Below, in pieces: positions 24,775-30,108 of a stretch of 64,000 nt of DNA; position 1 is the first letter of the stretch, and each line of letters begins with the position of its first letter. The stretch is from Trueperaceae bacterium (lineage in GTDB: Bacteria > Deinococcota > Deinococci > Deinococcales > Trueperaceae). The stretch covers positions 62,001 to 126,000 of the forward strand of contig JAMLIB010000009.1 in the NCBI GenBank assembly GCA_023954415.1. The letters run 5' to 3'. Made by a program: the position numbers and the translations under genes. The notes under the pieces were generated by a model, which made no database searches, had not been told where the DNA came from, and saw only the letters and a list, made by a program, of their open reading frames with translations.

Positions 24775-25491
24775 ATGACTGTTACTGAGCTACTCCTAAG
24801 CGGCGGACCGATCCTCGTCGTCATCATCCTGGTATCGATCTACGCCGTCTACCTCTTCGTCGAGCGGCTACTGAAGCTCAACCGCGAGCGCTCGGACACC
24901 TCGAGCCTCATGCTGCGCGTCAACGCCGCCGTACGCGAGCGCGACCTGGACTCCGCGCTCGACGCGTGCGAGCGCCACGGCGGGCCTACGGCGCGGGTCC
25001 TGAAGGCGGCCCTGGAGCGGTTGCCGTACGGCAGGCCGGCGGTGGAAGCCGCGTTCGAGGAAGCCATCATCAGCGAGGAGCAGAACCTCACGCGCGGGCT
25101 GACCCCGCTCGCGATCATGGCCAAGATCCTCCCCATGCTCGGCCTCCTCGGCACCGTGACGGGCATGATCATCTCGTTCTCCGAGATCTCCTTGCACGGC
25201 TCCGGCGATGCCGGGCAGCTCGCCTACGGCATCGGCCAGGCGCTCGTGACGACGGCCGCGGGCCTCATCGTCGCCATCCCCGTCCTGGTCGGTCACGGCT
25301 ACCTGAACAGCCTGGTGTCGAAGCTCCTCGGCGACATCGACAAGCGTCGCGAGGAGCTGATGGGCAACATCGTGCGGGCTGTCGCCGACAGGCGCGAGGA
25401 AGCCGGGGCGACGACCTACAGGCAGGGCGGCGAGCAGCAAACCGAACGCAACGTCGACATGCGCGGGGTGCGTCCGGCCCCGCAGGCCTGA
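24775..25491 (+). CDS. exbB: ExbB/TolQ/MotA-family proton channel protein
   Basis: ExbB forms the pentameric inner-membrane proton channel that, with ExbD, energises TonB-type proteins. The 238-residue protein has three hydrophobic segments: ILVVIILVSIYAVYLF near residues 12-28, the conserved MAKILPMLGLLGTVTGMIISF near 118-138, and GIGQALVTTAAGLIVAIPVLVG near 152-174. The cytoplasmic loop between the first two is typical. Promoter element TAGCAT lies at 24736-24741 and AAGGAG (24763-24768) six bases before ATG. It is the first gene of a three-gene operon with exbD and a TonB-like/DUF3048 fusion, with a 3-base gap to exbD. Confidence 0.93.
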   Translation: MTVTELLLSGGPILVVIILVSIYAVYLFVERLLKLNRERSDTSSLMLRVNAAVRERDLDSALDACERHGGPTARVLKAALERLPYGRPAVEAAFEEAIISEEQNLTRGLTPLAIMAKILPMLGLLGTVTGMIISFSEISLHGSGDAGQLAYGIGQALVTTAAGLIVAIPVLVGHGYLNSLVSKLLGDIDKRREELMGNIVRAVADRREEAGATTYRQGGEQQTERNVDMRGVRPAPQA

Positions 25492-25494
25492 ACC

Positions 25495-25908
25495 GTGTCC
25501 AGAGCGAGACTCAGACGCGGGCGGAGGCTCGCCATCGACCCGGAGCTCGACCTCACGCCGATGGTCGACGTCGTGTTCCTGCTCATCATCTTCTTCATGG
25601 TCTCGACCACGTTCATCACCGTCGAGACGGGGTTGCCCGTCGACCTGCCTGACGCCCAGATGAGCGTTGCGGAGCCATCGAACCTCCCAACCGTTACCGT
25701 CATGAAGGACGGCGCCGTGTACTTCGCGGGCGCTCGCGTGAGCGAAGCCGAGCTGGTAGAGATGGTCAGGGCCGAGATAAACCGCTCGGGCAACTCGACC
25801 ATCGTCCTCCGCGCCGACAGGGAGCTCCCGCACGGCACCGCGGTGCGCATCATGGACCTCATCAAACAGGCCGGGGCCCAACGCATAGCCATCTCGACCG
25901 GCGGATGA
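25495..25908 (+). CDS. exbD: ExbD/TolR-family protein
   Basis: ExbD is the dimeric partner that sits in the ExbB pore and uses proton flow to move TonB-like proteins. The 137-residue protein has a basic cytoplasmic N-terminus (RARLRRGRRL) and one transmembrane helix (TPMVDVVFLLIIFFMVSTT). The helix carries the essential Asp at residue 25, the same number as in E. coli ExbD. A periplasmic domain ending PHGTAVRIMDLIKQAGAQRIAIST follows. The start is GTG 25495, three bases after the exbB stop, so translation is coupled. A TolR role cannot be excluded by sequence alone. Confidence 0.94.
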   Translation: MSRARLRRGRRLAIDPELDLTPMVDVVFLLIIFFMVSTTFITVETGLPVDLPDAQMSVAEPSNLPTVTVMKDGAVYFAGARVSEAELVEMVRAEINRSGNSTIVLRADRELPHGTAVRIMDLIKQAGAQRIAISTGG

Positions 25909-25924
25909 TGGTGGAAGGGCCGGC

Positions 25925-27979
25925 ATGACGAGCGATATTCACCGCGAGGTGCGTCCGTGGCAGGACCCGGACAAGCGCCGGGCCATGGCGGTGTCGTTGA
26001 CACTCCATATGCTCGTCCTGCTCGTTGCCCTCGTCTATGGGCTTCGCCCTCGACCAGAGCCGGTCCCTCCGTACATCGTCATAGACGTCGGTACCCCCGC
26101 ATACGCGGAGGCGACCACGCTGGCACCGACGGCCGAGAGCCCGGCACCCCCCGCCCCTTCACCGCAAGTGGCGTCCGAGCAGATCGGCACGCCGCGTGAC
26201 CTGGCAGCGGAGCAGCGCGAGACGACCGCGCCGGAAGAGCGGCCCATAACGTTGCAGCCGCCGGCACCGGAAGCACCGCCGGCCCAAGCAGCCCAGCCGC
26301 AGGAGACCGTGCCGGATGAGAGCGCTGCCGCCGAGGCGCCTCTGGCACCCGCGCCGACCCCGCAGGTCGTGGAGGCTGCGCCGCCTACCGAGCCGTTGCC
26401 GCTCGCCGAGGCTCCGGCCACCCCGTTGCCCGAGATCGATCCGGTGGCCATCGCGCCTCGTCCGCTCGTCGACCCCGTCGTCATCCCCACACCGCCCGCG
26501 AGCGCCAACGTGACGGCCGCGCGTTCGGTCGCGGCCCAGCCGACCGCTACCGTGAGTGAGGCCGCTGCGCTGACCAACCCGCAGGTGAGCGCCGCCATCG
26601 CCGCTCCGCAGACGATCTCGGCCCCGACGGCGAGCGCCCAGGTGGCTCAGTCCGTCGGGCTCGCGGCCCCGACCGCCCAAGCGGCCGTCGCGGCAAGCAC
26701 GGCCTTGGCCGCCCCGGCGGTCTCCGCCCAGATAGCGAGCGGAACCGCCCTCTCCACCTCGGGCGTCGCGGCCAGCGTCGCCGGTACGCGTCCGCTCGCC
26801 GAGCCCACGGCCACCGCCCAGGTCGGCACACGGCGCGACGTGAGCGTCGTCCCCCAGGTAGCCGTCGCGCAGGTCGCCGAGATCCCGGCGCCCGCCGTCA
26901 GGGCCGACATCGTCTCGGCCATCACCGCGGTCGGTGCTCCGGGTGCAGACGGTACACGTACGGGCGATACCGACGTGGCCGCCACCGTCCAGAACAACCG
27001 CACGCCCGGCGGCAACGCTTCTACGGCCGGCCAGACCGGCCCCCTCGACCCGAACGCGACGGCCGACGGTCGCGGTCTCAACGCGGGGCCGGACGGCGTG
27101 GGACAGGGGACGGGCGCTCCCGCCCAGGCTGCGCGCCTGCCGTTCTCCTTCACTCGCGAGAGGCCGTTGGCCGTCCTGGTCGACAACGTCGGCGGCTACC
27201 CGCAGACCGGCCTGCGCGAGGCGAGCATGATCGTCGAGATGCCCGTGGAAGGCGGCCTGACGAGACTGATGGCCTTGTACGACAGCAACTTTCCCCGGCG
27301 CGTCGGACCGGTCAGGAGTGCCCGCGACTATTTCGTCGAGCTGGCGCAGACGAGCCAGGCCGTGCTCGTGCACGATGGCGGTTCGCCCGGTGCGATGATC
27401 GCCATCGCCAACTCTTCGCTGCCGACCCTGAACGCCTACAACAACGGTCCGCTCTTCACGCGCGAAGGGGAGCGTTCCGCGCCATACAACCTCTACGGCT
27501 CGGGCCCGGACCTCAAGTCGGCGATGCTGCGCCTAGTTCCCGAGACGTCTCAGGTCGTGAGCGGGCAGGTGTTCCAGCCGACGGACGCCGCTGTGGCGGT
27601 AACGGAAGTGAGCGTCAGGTACAGCGGCGCCTACACGTCGGGTTTCCGGTACGACGCCGTGCTCAACGCCTACCGTTGGGTGCGCGACGGCACGCCGGCC
27701 AGTCACCCTGACGGTCAGATCATGCTCTATGACGCGGTGTTGGTGGGCGAGATCACTGCGCGCGTGCTGCCGGGCGACACGGAAGGGCGTCTGTACATCC
27801 CGCTCGAGGGTGGCGAGGCGACGCTCTACTTGAGGGGTCGCGCCGAACCCGGTCGGTGGGTGCTCTCGACCGGTAAGGGCGTGCAGTTCCGCACCCTCGG
27901 AGGCGAGGTCGTCGACCTGGCCCCGTTCCGCACGTGGGCCATGCTGACCCCCACGTACGAGGGCCGTCAGGAGCAGTGA
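25925..27979 (+). CDS. TonB-like N-terminal domain fused to a DUF3048 (YerB-like) domain
   Basis: This 684-residue protein follows exbB and exbD. Residues 20-45 form one transmembrane helix with S24-L-T-L-H28, the Ser-x3-His pattern that TonB uses to engage ExbB-ExbD. Residues 45-400 are a Pro/Ala/Thr/Val-rich linker, including a 15-residue repeat array at 193-340. From about residue 404 there is no TonB C-terminal domain. Instead a complete DUF3048 region appears: ERPLAVLVDNVGGYPQTGL, VEMPVEGGLTRLMALY and RRVGPVRSARDYFVELAQ, then the DUF3048_C-like part with ALYLRGR-type strands and FRTWAMLTP. DUF3048 is known from YerB lipoproteins of Firmicutes and related bacteria and has no settled function. 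I infer a proton-motive-force coupled envelope protein. Confidence 0.88.
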   Translation: MTSDIHREVRPWQDPDKRRAMAVSLTLHMLVLLVALVYGLRPRPEPVPPYIVIDVGTPAYAEATTLAPTAESPAPPAPSPQVASEQIGTPRDLAAEQRETTAPEERPITLQPPAPEAPPAQAAQPQETVPDESAAAEAPLAPAPTPQVVEAAPPTEPLPLAEAPATPLPEIDPVAIAPRPLVDPVVIPTPPASANVTAARSVAAQPTATVSEAAALTNPQVSAAIAAPQTISAPTASAQVAQSVGLAAPTAQAAVAASTALAAPAVSAQIASGTALSTSGVAASVAGTRPLAEPTATAQVGTRRDVSVVPQVAVAQVAEIPAPAVRADIVSAITAVGAPGADGTRTGDTDVAATVQNNRTPGGNASTAGQTGPLDPNATADGRGLNAGPDGVGQGTGAPAQAARLPFSFTRERPLAVLVDNVGGYPQTGLREASMIVEMPVEGGLTRLMALYDSNFPRRVGPVRSARDYFVELAQTSQAVLVHDGGSPGAMIAIANSSLPTLNAYNNGPLFTREGERSAPYNLYGSGPDLKSAMLRLVPETSQVVSGQVFQPTDAAVAVTEVSVRYSGAYTSGFRYDAVLNAYRWVRDGTPASHPDGQIMLYDAVLVGEITARVLPGDTEGRLYIPLEGGEATLYLRGRAEPGRWVLSTGKGVQFRTLGGEVVDLAPFRTWAMLTPTYEGRQEQ
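26501..26857 (+). repeat. Degenerate 45-base (15-residue) tandem repeats in the fusion linker
   Basis: About eight consecutive units of 14-16 residues run from residue 193 to 311. The pattern is x-A-x-V/I, five variable residues, L/V, two residues, P, two residues. Examples are SAQVAQSVGLAAPTA, QAAVAASTALAAPAV and SAQIASGTALSTSGV. A weaker unit follows to residue 340. The periodicity is in protein; the DNA has diverged. Confidence 0.7.
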
Positions 27980-27991
27980 GCCGAGCCCCGT

Positions 27992-28783
27992 TCAGGTAGA
28001 CGCAGGCAGGCGCGGCACGGTCTCGTCGAAGAACAGCCCGTGCAGGCGCAGCCTGTACTCGGCGCTGCTCGTGTCGATCTCGAGCCACGCGTACTCGTCC
28101 TTGTGACCGTTCGTGTCGAGGAGCAGTGCCCGCCCCTGCGACGCCACGTTGACCCCGCCGCGCACTGGGGTGTGCCCGTACACGCCAAGGCGGTAAGGGG
28201 TGCCGTCGAGGAAGTCCTTGTCCTCCTGCAGCCAGCGCCGCCGGTTCTCGAGGTAGAAGGCCTGGTCGTAGACGTTGTGCTCGGGGAGCGGCCCGACGTG
28301 GGCGAAGTGCAGCCCTTCGACCGCGAGCTCCCTGGGCCAGCCGAGGATCCAGTCGCGCAGCTCCGGCTCGAGCTCCTCGCCGTGGCCAGGCTTCCACTCA
28401 AGGTGCGACACGTCGTCGGTGCGCAGCGGACCCTGCTCGACCGTGGCGGCGTTGAAGTCGTGGTTGCCGAGGAGGATGACCATGTTGCCGCTCGGCACGC
28501 GGTCCTGGAAGCCCTTGACCTCGCGCAGGAAGCGCACCTGGATCGCCTCGGCCCGCTGCAGGTGGCGCGGGTTGTACTCGTCGTAGCGCCGCACGTTGAT
28601 CAGGTCGGCGTAGCGCTGCCTGCTCTTGGCGTGCACGAGGTCGCCCAGGAGCACCAGTCGCGTGTCGCTGCCGCGCAGGGCGTCCGTAGGCCGGTTCTGC
28701 TCGTCTGCGAGGCCGGCCTCGCGGAGCATGCGCCACAGCTTGTCAGGTTGCACGTGGATGTCGCCGATGACGACGATACGCAC
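27992..28783 (-). CDS. Calcineurin-like metallophosphoesterase
   Basis: This 263-residue protein has the complete binuclear metal motif set of serine/threonine-phosphatase-type esterases: VVIGDIHVQPDK at the N-terminus, LVLLGDLVHAKS, ILLGNHDFN, GLHFAHVGPLPEH and VYGHTPVRGG. The middle part is rich in aromatic residues typical of Ser/Thr protein phosphatase relatives. The substrate is unknown; phosphoprotein, nucleotide or phospholipid are all possible. The start is GTG 28783. It lies 23 bases downstream of the LysM/M23 gene on the same strand and is probably in its operon. It ends 12 bases from the convergent fusion gene. Confidence 0.88.
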   Translation of the reverse strand: MRIVVIGDIHVQPDKLWRMLREAGLADEQNRPTDALRGSDTRLVLLGDLVHAKSRQRYADLINVRRYDEYNPRHLQRAEAIQVRFLREVKGFQDRVPSGNMVILLGNHDFNAATVEQGPLRTDDVSHLEWKPGHGEELEPELRDWILGWPRELAVEGLHFAHVGPLPEHNVYDQAFYLENRRRWLQEDKDFLDGTPYRLGVYGHTPVRGGVNVASQGRALLLDTNGHKDEYAWLEIDTSSAEYRLRLHGLFFDETVPRLPAST

Positions 28784-28806
28784 TCGGTCAGCTCACTTCC
28801 GATCGA

Positions 28807-29979
28807 TCAACGCCCGGCGTACGTATCGAGGCGGGGCAGAGGGTCGATCATCTGGCCGTCTACGCGGATCTCGAAGTGCAGATGCGATCCGGTCGAGTTC
28901 CCAGTGCTACCGACGAGCGCGATGACGTCGCCGGCGGCGACCTCGTCGCCTACCTCGACCTTGAGCGCGGAGGCGTGACCGTAATAGTACTCGGTGTTGC
29001 CGCTCGTGACTATCACGAGGTTGCCGTACCCACCGTGCCAGCCGGAGAGCGTCACGGTGCCGGCGTGCGCGGCGCGGATCGGGTCGCCCGTCTCGCCGTC
29101 GATATCTATCCCCGTATGGAAGTTGCTCCCGCTTACGCGCAACTGCCGGTAGCCGAAGCGCGAGGTGATGGAGCCGATGAGGGGCCACATGAGCGTGCCG
29201 TCGCCGGTCGTGGGCGCGGCCGGAACGGCGAGGACGGCCTTGGTAGGCTCGATGTCCGTGCCGGGAAGCACGCGGAGTTGCTGGCCGACGTAGAGCGTGT
29301 CGCCCTTGAGCGAGTTGGCGCTCTTGAGGGCAGCGATGGTGCTGTCGTAACGCTGGGCGATCGACCACAGGGTCTCACCCGGACCGACGACGATCTGCAT
29401 GGGCACAGGACCGCCGACGTCCGTCTCGGACGCGCTGGCGTACTGCCCCGGGATAGAGAGTATGGCTCCGACGCGCAAGGTGGCCGCTGACGAGAGGCCG
29501 TTGGCGCTGGCGATGGCGGCCACTGTCGTGTCGTACCGGCGGGCCAACGCCCAGAGGGAGTCGCCCGCGGCCACGGTGACCGTGAGCGGCTCGGGGGCCT
29601 TGTCGCCGGTCGCCAGCCGCAGCTCCTGGCCGGGGTGGATGAGCGTGCCGTCGAGGTCGTTGAACGCGATGAGGTCGGCGACCGAGAGGTCGTTGGCCAA
29701 GGCGATGTCGTAGAGCGTGTCGCCGGCGCGCACCACCACCGTCTTGACCTGCGCCGCCGGCTCCTCGTCCTCGCCCGGCACGGTCAAGACCTGGCCGGGG
29801 CGGATGGCGTCGGAGGAGAGGCCGTTCAGTTGGATGAGATCGGCGACCGTAGTGTCGTAACGGCGTGCCAGTGCCCACAGGCTGTCGCCCGGCTGCACGG
29901 TGATGGTCTTGGCGGATGCCGCTGCGGTCCCCAAGACGACCACTGCGAGAACGGAACGGACCAGGCTTGAGGGACGCAC
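28807..29979 (-). CDS. LysM-repeat M23-family peptidoglycan endopeptidase
   Basis: This 390-residue exported protein has a signal peptide (SLVRSVLAVVVLGTAAASA) and four LysM peptidoglycan-binding repeats (each starting PGDSLWALARRYD or a variant such as AGDTLYDIALAND). The C-terminal M23/lysostaphin-type domain shows zinc-site motifs NFHTGIDID and SHLHFEIRVDG. M23 enzymes cut peptide cross-links or, when inactive, activate amidases; the ligands seen here suggest an active enzyme. GTG 29979 is seven bases after TACATT (29987-29992), so it is probably leaderless. The metallophosphoesterase gene follows in the same operon. Confidence 0.93.
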   Translation of the reverse strand: MRPSSLVRSVLAVVVLGTAAASAKTITVQPGDSLWALARRYDTTVADLIQLNGLSSDAIRPGQVLTVPGEDEEPAAQVKTVVVRAGDTLYDIALANDLSVADLIAFNDLDGTLIHPGQELRLATGDKAPEPLTVTVAAGDSLWALARRYDTTVAAIASANGLSSAATLRVGAILSIPGQYASASETDVGGPVPMQIVVGPGETLWSIAQRYDSTIAALKSANSLKGDTLYVGQQLRVLPGTDIEPTKAVLAVPAAPTTGDGTLMWPLIGSITSRFGYRQLRVSGSNFHTGIDIDGETGDPIRAAHAGTVTLSGWHGGYGNLVIVTSGNTEYYYGHASALKVEVGDEVAAGDVIALVGSTGNSTGSHLHFEIRVDGQMIDPLPRLDTYAGR

Positions 29980-30108
29980 GCCGTCAAATGTACCAGAACC
30001 GGCGCACCACGCAACAGGAAAAACCCGGCAATCGCACACCGGAACGTCAGGTGCGGTCGGTTCTGATGTTCCCGGCCGGCCTTCTCGCCGTCACCTGCGC
30101 TTGAACGA

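Follow-up and report, generated by a model that had tools for sequence, protein, structure and literature searches.

Proton-powered motors of the ExbB-ExbD kind ordinarily act by pulling on proteins of the outer membrane. In E. coli, TonB and TolA contact ExbB and TolQ through Ser16/His20 and Ser18/His22, respectively (PMC12215075), and the ExbD dimer binds a proline-flanked strand known as the D-box (PMC10907165). ExbD also touches the glycans of peptidoglycan (PMC10771500). A further kind of motor-driven force transducer, the von Willebrand A (vWA) type, combines motor genes with a TonB-like Ser/His helix, a disordered linker, a motor box and an end domain other than TonB_C (PMC12204202). 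We analyzed a 64,000-nt stretch of DNA (the window) from a Trueperaceae bacterium (GCA_023954415.1, contig JAMLIB010000009.1, positions 62,001-126,000), in which exbB and exbD are followed by a gene for a TonB-like protein fused to DUF3048.

The operon resembles the vWA transducers in its motor genes, TonB-like helix, linker and an end domain unrelated to TonB_C, and in both cases a TPR gene can adjoin the motor (in the PVC group for the vWA type and in Atribacterota here). It differs in ending in DUF3048/YerB rather than vWA, in belonging to other phyla with another likely target, in having a single ExbD instead of a pair of TolR-like genes, and in a linker about three times longer. ExbB, ExbD, the Ser-x3-His helix and a Pro-rich linker are common to TonB-ExbB-ExbD, with a strand that resembles its D-box, whereas TonB_C and, in the source genome, a receptor barrel are missing. 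TolA-TolQ-TolR with TolB-Pal uses the same motor family, and by score ExbB and ExbD of the window are a little closer to TolQ and TolR, but the fusion has no TolA domain and no OmpA/Pal domain was detected in the source genome. YerB of B. subtilis has the same fold over the whole domain and most of the invariant residues, but is a lipoprotein of unknown function. The DUF3048 system fits the idea of motor-driven transducers set by the vWA precedent. The fusion itself, of which the first-pass annotation knew no description, was not described in the openly licensed literature that we searched on YerB, on Atribacteria TonB/ExbB and on Deinococcus ExbB/ExbD/TonB, where a single paper mentions DUF3048, as unknown. 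Earlier reports of TonB in Atribacteria are cited in the vWA-transducer study (PMC12204202).

The operon and its DUF3048 fusion

The three genes form a tight cluster on the + strand (24775-27979) with a gap of 16 bases between exbD and the fusion gene (Table 1), and the coordinates, order and gaps all agree with the operon proposed in the first-pass annotation. Its neighbors in the window are genes for PEP carboxylase and a phosphoesterase and an opposite-strand gene for a LysM-M23 endopeptidase. In many Trueperaceae genomes, the fusion gene is likewise followed by a metallophosphoesterase gene and the opposite-strand endopeptidase gene (27992-30039 in the window).

Table 1. Features of the exbB-exbD-fusion operon, numbered from the first nucleotide of the window.
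Feature	Position	Strand	Basis
exbB (MotA/TolQ/ExbB family, 238 aa), motor ring subunit	24775-25491	+	PF01618 7.9e-28
exbD (137 aa), proton-carrying subunit	25495-25908	+	PF02472 9.3e-31
ExbD Asp25	25567-25569	+	read directly from sequence
TonB-like transducer::DUF3048 fusion (684 aa, 684 codons)	25925-27979	+	
Membrane helix of the fusion, about residues 20-41	25982-26047	+	hydropathy peak at residues 20-38, motif tally
Ser24-x3-His28 in the fusion helix	25994-26008	+	read directly from sequence
D-box-like strand, residues 48-58 (PPYIVIDVGTP), proposed ExbD-binding strand (binding inferred)	26066-26098	+	resembles TonB D-box (PMC10907165)
Ala/Pro/Thr/Val-rich linker, residues 59-400 (~340 residues)	26099-27124	+	composition
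DUF3048 N-terminal part, residues 411-534	27155-27526	+	PF11258 1.5e-34
DUF3048 C-terminal part, residues 562-671	27608-27937	+	PF17479 2.4e-7

The Pfam matches to MotA_ExbB, ExbD, DUF3048 and DUF3048_C all exceeded the gathering cut-offs. ExbB of the window matched chains of both TolQ and ExbB in solved structures, and its NCBIfam score was closer to TolQ than to ExbB, yet below the equivalog cut-offs. ExbD was aligned to E. coli ExbD (6tyi), and the Asp25 reported earlier in its membrane helix is indeed present. The Pfam families and this membrane Asp place the two proteins in the MotA/TolQ/ExbB and ExbD/TolR motor. The Trp residue of E. coli ExbB that contacts TonB was not obvious in ExbB of the window.

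The fusion protein begins with a single N-terminal hydrophobic helix, and the Ser24-x3-His28 pair that had marked it as TonB-like was kept in 21/21 Trueperaceae fusions examined, so that it is not a chance occurrence. In the fusions of a second Deinococcota family (f3), the motif is lost and replaced by Ala/Ser-x3-Thr/Ser while ExbB and ExbD are retained, which is a genuine complication for a TonB-like mechanism. The Atribacterota sequences shown carry Ser-x3-Asn at this place; Asn is reportedly a replacement for His20 of E. coli TonB. A D-box-like strand follows the helix in all Deinococcota fusions examined. In the window, it is proline-flanked, hydrophobic and spaced similarly to the TonB D-box, but differs from the exact published pattern (PMC10907165). 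The linker, initially estimated at about 350 residues, is close to that length and Ala/Pro-rich, with few conserved columns among the 25 fusions compared.

Both halves of a DUF3048/YerB-like domain had been assigned to the C-terminus without any database search, and both were recovered by Pfam with 119.7 bits for PF11258 and 31.6 bits for PF17479 against a gathering cut-off of 25. The only sequence match of the end domain was YerB of B. subtilis (2psb, E 1.9e-28). An AlphaFold2 model built from 72 sequences reached a pLDDT of 94.2 and a pTM of 0.92, and 2psb was also its sole significant Foldseek match in the PDB (E 2.4e-25, TM 0.83). As modeled, the end domain of the window protein is a complete DUF3048 (YerB) fold. 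The 72 sequences included lipoproteins, Patescibacteria proteins and fusions, and were invariant at E438, E442, R447, R464, S465, R467 and Y469 in the N-terminal part and at R622, W645 and W671 in the C-terminal part. Since these ten residues are invariant over the whole set, the fused DUF3048 looks functional rather than decayed.

Pfam found no TonB_C or TolA domain in the fusion, in line with the original call that the TonB C-terminal domain is missing, and a vWA end domain was found by neither Pfam nor Foldseek. TonB_C and LysM, either of which would have refuted that call, were ruled out as the end domain by Pfam and by the Foldseek comparison that had been proposed as a check.

Motor and transducer genes across the order

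The source genome has one ExbD, and no second exbD was found elsewhere in it. A separate classical tonB as the true partner of this motor had been named beforehand as a refuting condition; TonB_C was not detected in the source genome, and no such gene was found. Searches of the same genome found no TonB-dependent-receptor barrel (PF00593) and no OmpA/Pal domain, which together with the lack of a TolA match leaves Tol-Pal unrecognized, TolB being outside the search. Among 94 genomes of the order, TonB_C occurred in only one, which is 85% complete, and no classical tonB was found in the 85 genomes of better quality.

DUF3048 was confined within these 94 genomes to the families f1 (Trueperaceae) and f3, in which each genome has at most one ExbD. 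The exbB-exbD-fusion order was observed in 31/34 f1/f3 genomes holding both genes; the three exceptions have them on separate contigs, with the locus cut by contig ends. The same arrangement, for which a search of Deinococcota had been suggested along with the initial reading, is found across Trueperaceae and extends to one further family of the order. An assembly artefact or join as the source of the fusion was ruled out, as DUF3048 is present in 29/31 Trueperaceae genomes and the fusion also occurs in single-contig genomes.

Several other variants were noted. The ExbBD partner in families f2, f4 and f5 (L101, L104, L105, L107, L108, L109) has a TonB-like helix and a linker and ends in a two-cysteine domain of ~110 aa (CAVVVDARGL...VWPD...C.xVFLR), a second unexplained transducer end without a Pfam, NCBIfam or PDB match. 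At L107:4962-6566 (f4, G078), ExbD and the TonB-like transducer share one 534-aa frame and ExbB has only 116 aa, which could be either a fusion or a frame error. A trypsin-like serine protease::DUF3048 paralogue is encoded at L115:3086-4894 (G015) with no ExbBD within the DNA fetched. At L062:5344-7809 (G021), a second TonB-like helix is followed by a long repeat linker (PSPxPxASVAPxx); no DUF3048 was found, and the part near the end is N-masked.

Recurrence in Atribacterota

A search of species genomes revealed the same three-gene order in Atribacteria. Among 50 Atribacterota genomes, 46 contain DUF3048 and 41 contain ExbD, and exbD lies directly upstream of the TonB-like::DUF3048 gene in 38 of the 41. 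Most genomes of the phylum have no TonB_C and carry the DUF3048 form instead. Classical TonB_C is present in 10 genomes, nine of which have a second ExbD that belongs, in the loci inspected, to a receptor-tonB-exbB-exbD operon. As the classical Ton system has separate exbB-exbD genes, the motor of the DUF3048 arm is not shared with it in this phylum. Atribacterota are a natural control, with one motor per transducer.

Upstream in the DUF3048 operon of Atribacterota is a gene for a large TPR protein whose repeats resemble those of YfiO/YbgF; some genomes also have lgt downstream. At L146 and L189 the TPR protein is ~1050 aa; at these two loci and at L283 the motor operon adjoins lgt, encoding prolipoprotein diacylglyceryl transferase. 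Part of the phylum has a separate short DUF3048 protein of 311-340 aa with a signal-peptide-like start (L267-L272).

In the tree, the Deinococcota fusions form one supported group, with one trypsin-DUF3048 paralogue inside, and the Atribacterota fusions form another, nearer to Bacillota proteins. A tree constrained to unite the fusions of the two phyla is worse by 12 log units, but a single clade was not rejected (AU test, p 0.238). Separate origins of the fusion in Deinococcota and Atribacterota are thus suggested but not shown.

Likely target and inferred mode of action

We consider it reasonably probable, if by no means settled, that the fusion is a proton-driven force transducer whose DUF3048 working end handles peptidoglycan, with both the force and the substrate inferred. 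The dedicated ExbB-ExbD motor would hold the TonB-like helix at its rim, with Ser24/His28 against ExbB, and the D-box-like strand would sit in the periplasmic dimer of ExbD; both contacts are inferred. The linker would take DUF3048 out to the peptidoglycan, and proton flow via Asp25 of ExbD would move or tense the arm, if force is transmitted as presumed. While the wall grows or is remodeled, DUF3048 might then bind, pull on or release a precursor or a partner linked to peptidoglycan. Gene order and motifs lend strong support to a coupling of the fusion to ExbBD, although binding and motion have been shown neither by experiment nor by a model of the complex. The arm held and moved by the motor, with its working end at the wall, is drawn by analogy. 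The operon, domain architecture, predicted fold, conservation, motor exclusivity and recurrence in a second phylum are established by the present analysis.

The unfused relatives bear on the choice of target. Bacillota DUF3048 proteins are lipoproteins, and those fetched have no adjacent motor genes; one of them, YerB, is listed among sporulation genes (PMC3416734). In Patescibacteria, DUF3048 is membrane-anchored without ExbBD, and rodA and/or murA lie within the fetched flanks at 13/16 loci. In Clostridia and Halanaerobiia, DUF3048 belongs to a pgpH-ybeY-dgkA-DUF3048-cdd-era cluster, with dgkA as its neighbor in many Clostridia loci; this is weaker evidence because unrelated housekeeping genes are also in the cluster. 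These neighbors point to peptidoglycan synthesis.

Alternatively, the motor-driven DUF3048 may act on an outer-membrane or surface-layer partner, as an analogue of TolA or TonB for attachment or constriction of the unusual envelope in these lineages. All motor-coupled carriers are in phyla usually considered to have two membranes, the length of the linker would suffice to span a periplasm, a substitute for the undetected Tol-Pal and Ton parts is plausible, and the repeats of the Atribacterota TPR protein would suit such a role. We regard this as unlikely, though still viable: Bacillota that lack an outer membrane use this very domain, invariant residues included, so the ancestral target is unlikely to be that membrane, and peptidoglycan-precursor and polymerase genes are among the neighbors in Bacillota and Patescibacteria. 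The first-pass annotation had left the wall and the outer membrane side by side as the site of a proton-driven machine. The machine is supported and the wall is favored by the second phylum and the rodA/murA neighborhood, while proton-driven pulling remains an inference. DUF3048 thus probably acts on the cell wall, but no ligand or activity is known for it, and against this reading, the rodA/murA link comes only from other phyla and unfused proteins, and the operon in the window has the other neighbors named above.

It is also conceivable, but improbable, that the fusion is merely a membrane-anchored DUF3048 protein, positioned by ExbB-ExbD or sensing protons through it, with no force passing down the linker. 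The simply anchored Patescibacteria proteins and the f3 members without Ser-x3-His would agree with this, but a motor of its own in two phyla and the retention of the ExbD Asp, the D-box-like strand and the long Pro-rich linker do not. An unusual Ton transport, in which non-canonical receptors are opened by DUF3048 in place of TonB_C, has only the exbB-exbD-tonB-like gene order in its favor and can hardly be upheld without a PF00593 barrel in the genome and with the classical operons of Atribacterota kept apart.

Extending the wall-directed transducer reading, we tentatively propose, with the balance against it, that these fusions form a third class of proton-driven transducers of the envelope, next to TonB/TolA and the vWA type, in which motor force would reach peptidoglycan or the machinery that makes it via DUF3048. 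Such a class would have been acquired separately in Deinococcota and Atribacterota. DUF3048, a widespread domain of unknown function, gains a motor partner and a likely place of action. The finding suggests a possible reason why ExbB-ExbD persists in some Terrabacteria in which no Ton or Tol parts can be detected. If DUF3048 does handle peptidoglycan, this would be a direct link between proton-motive force and the wall.
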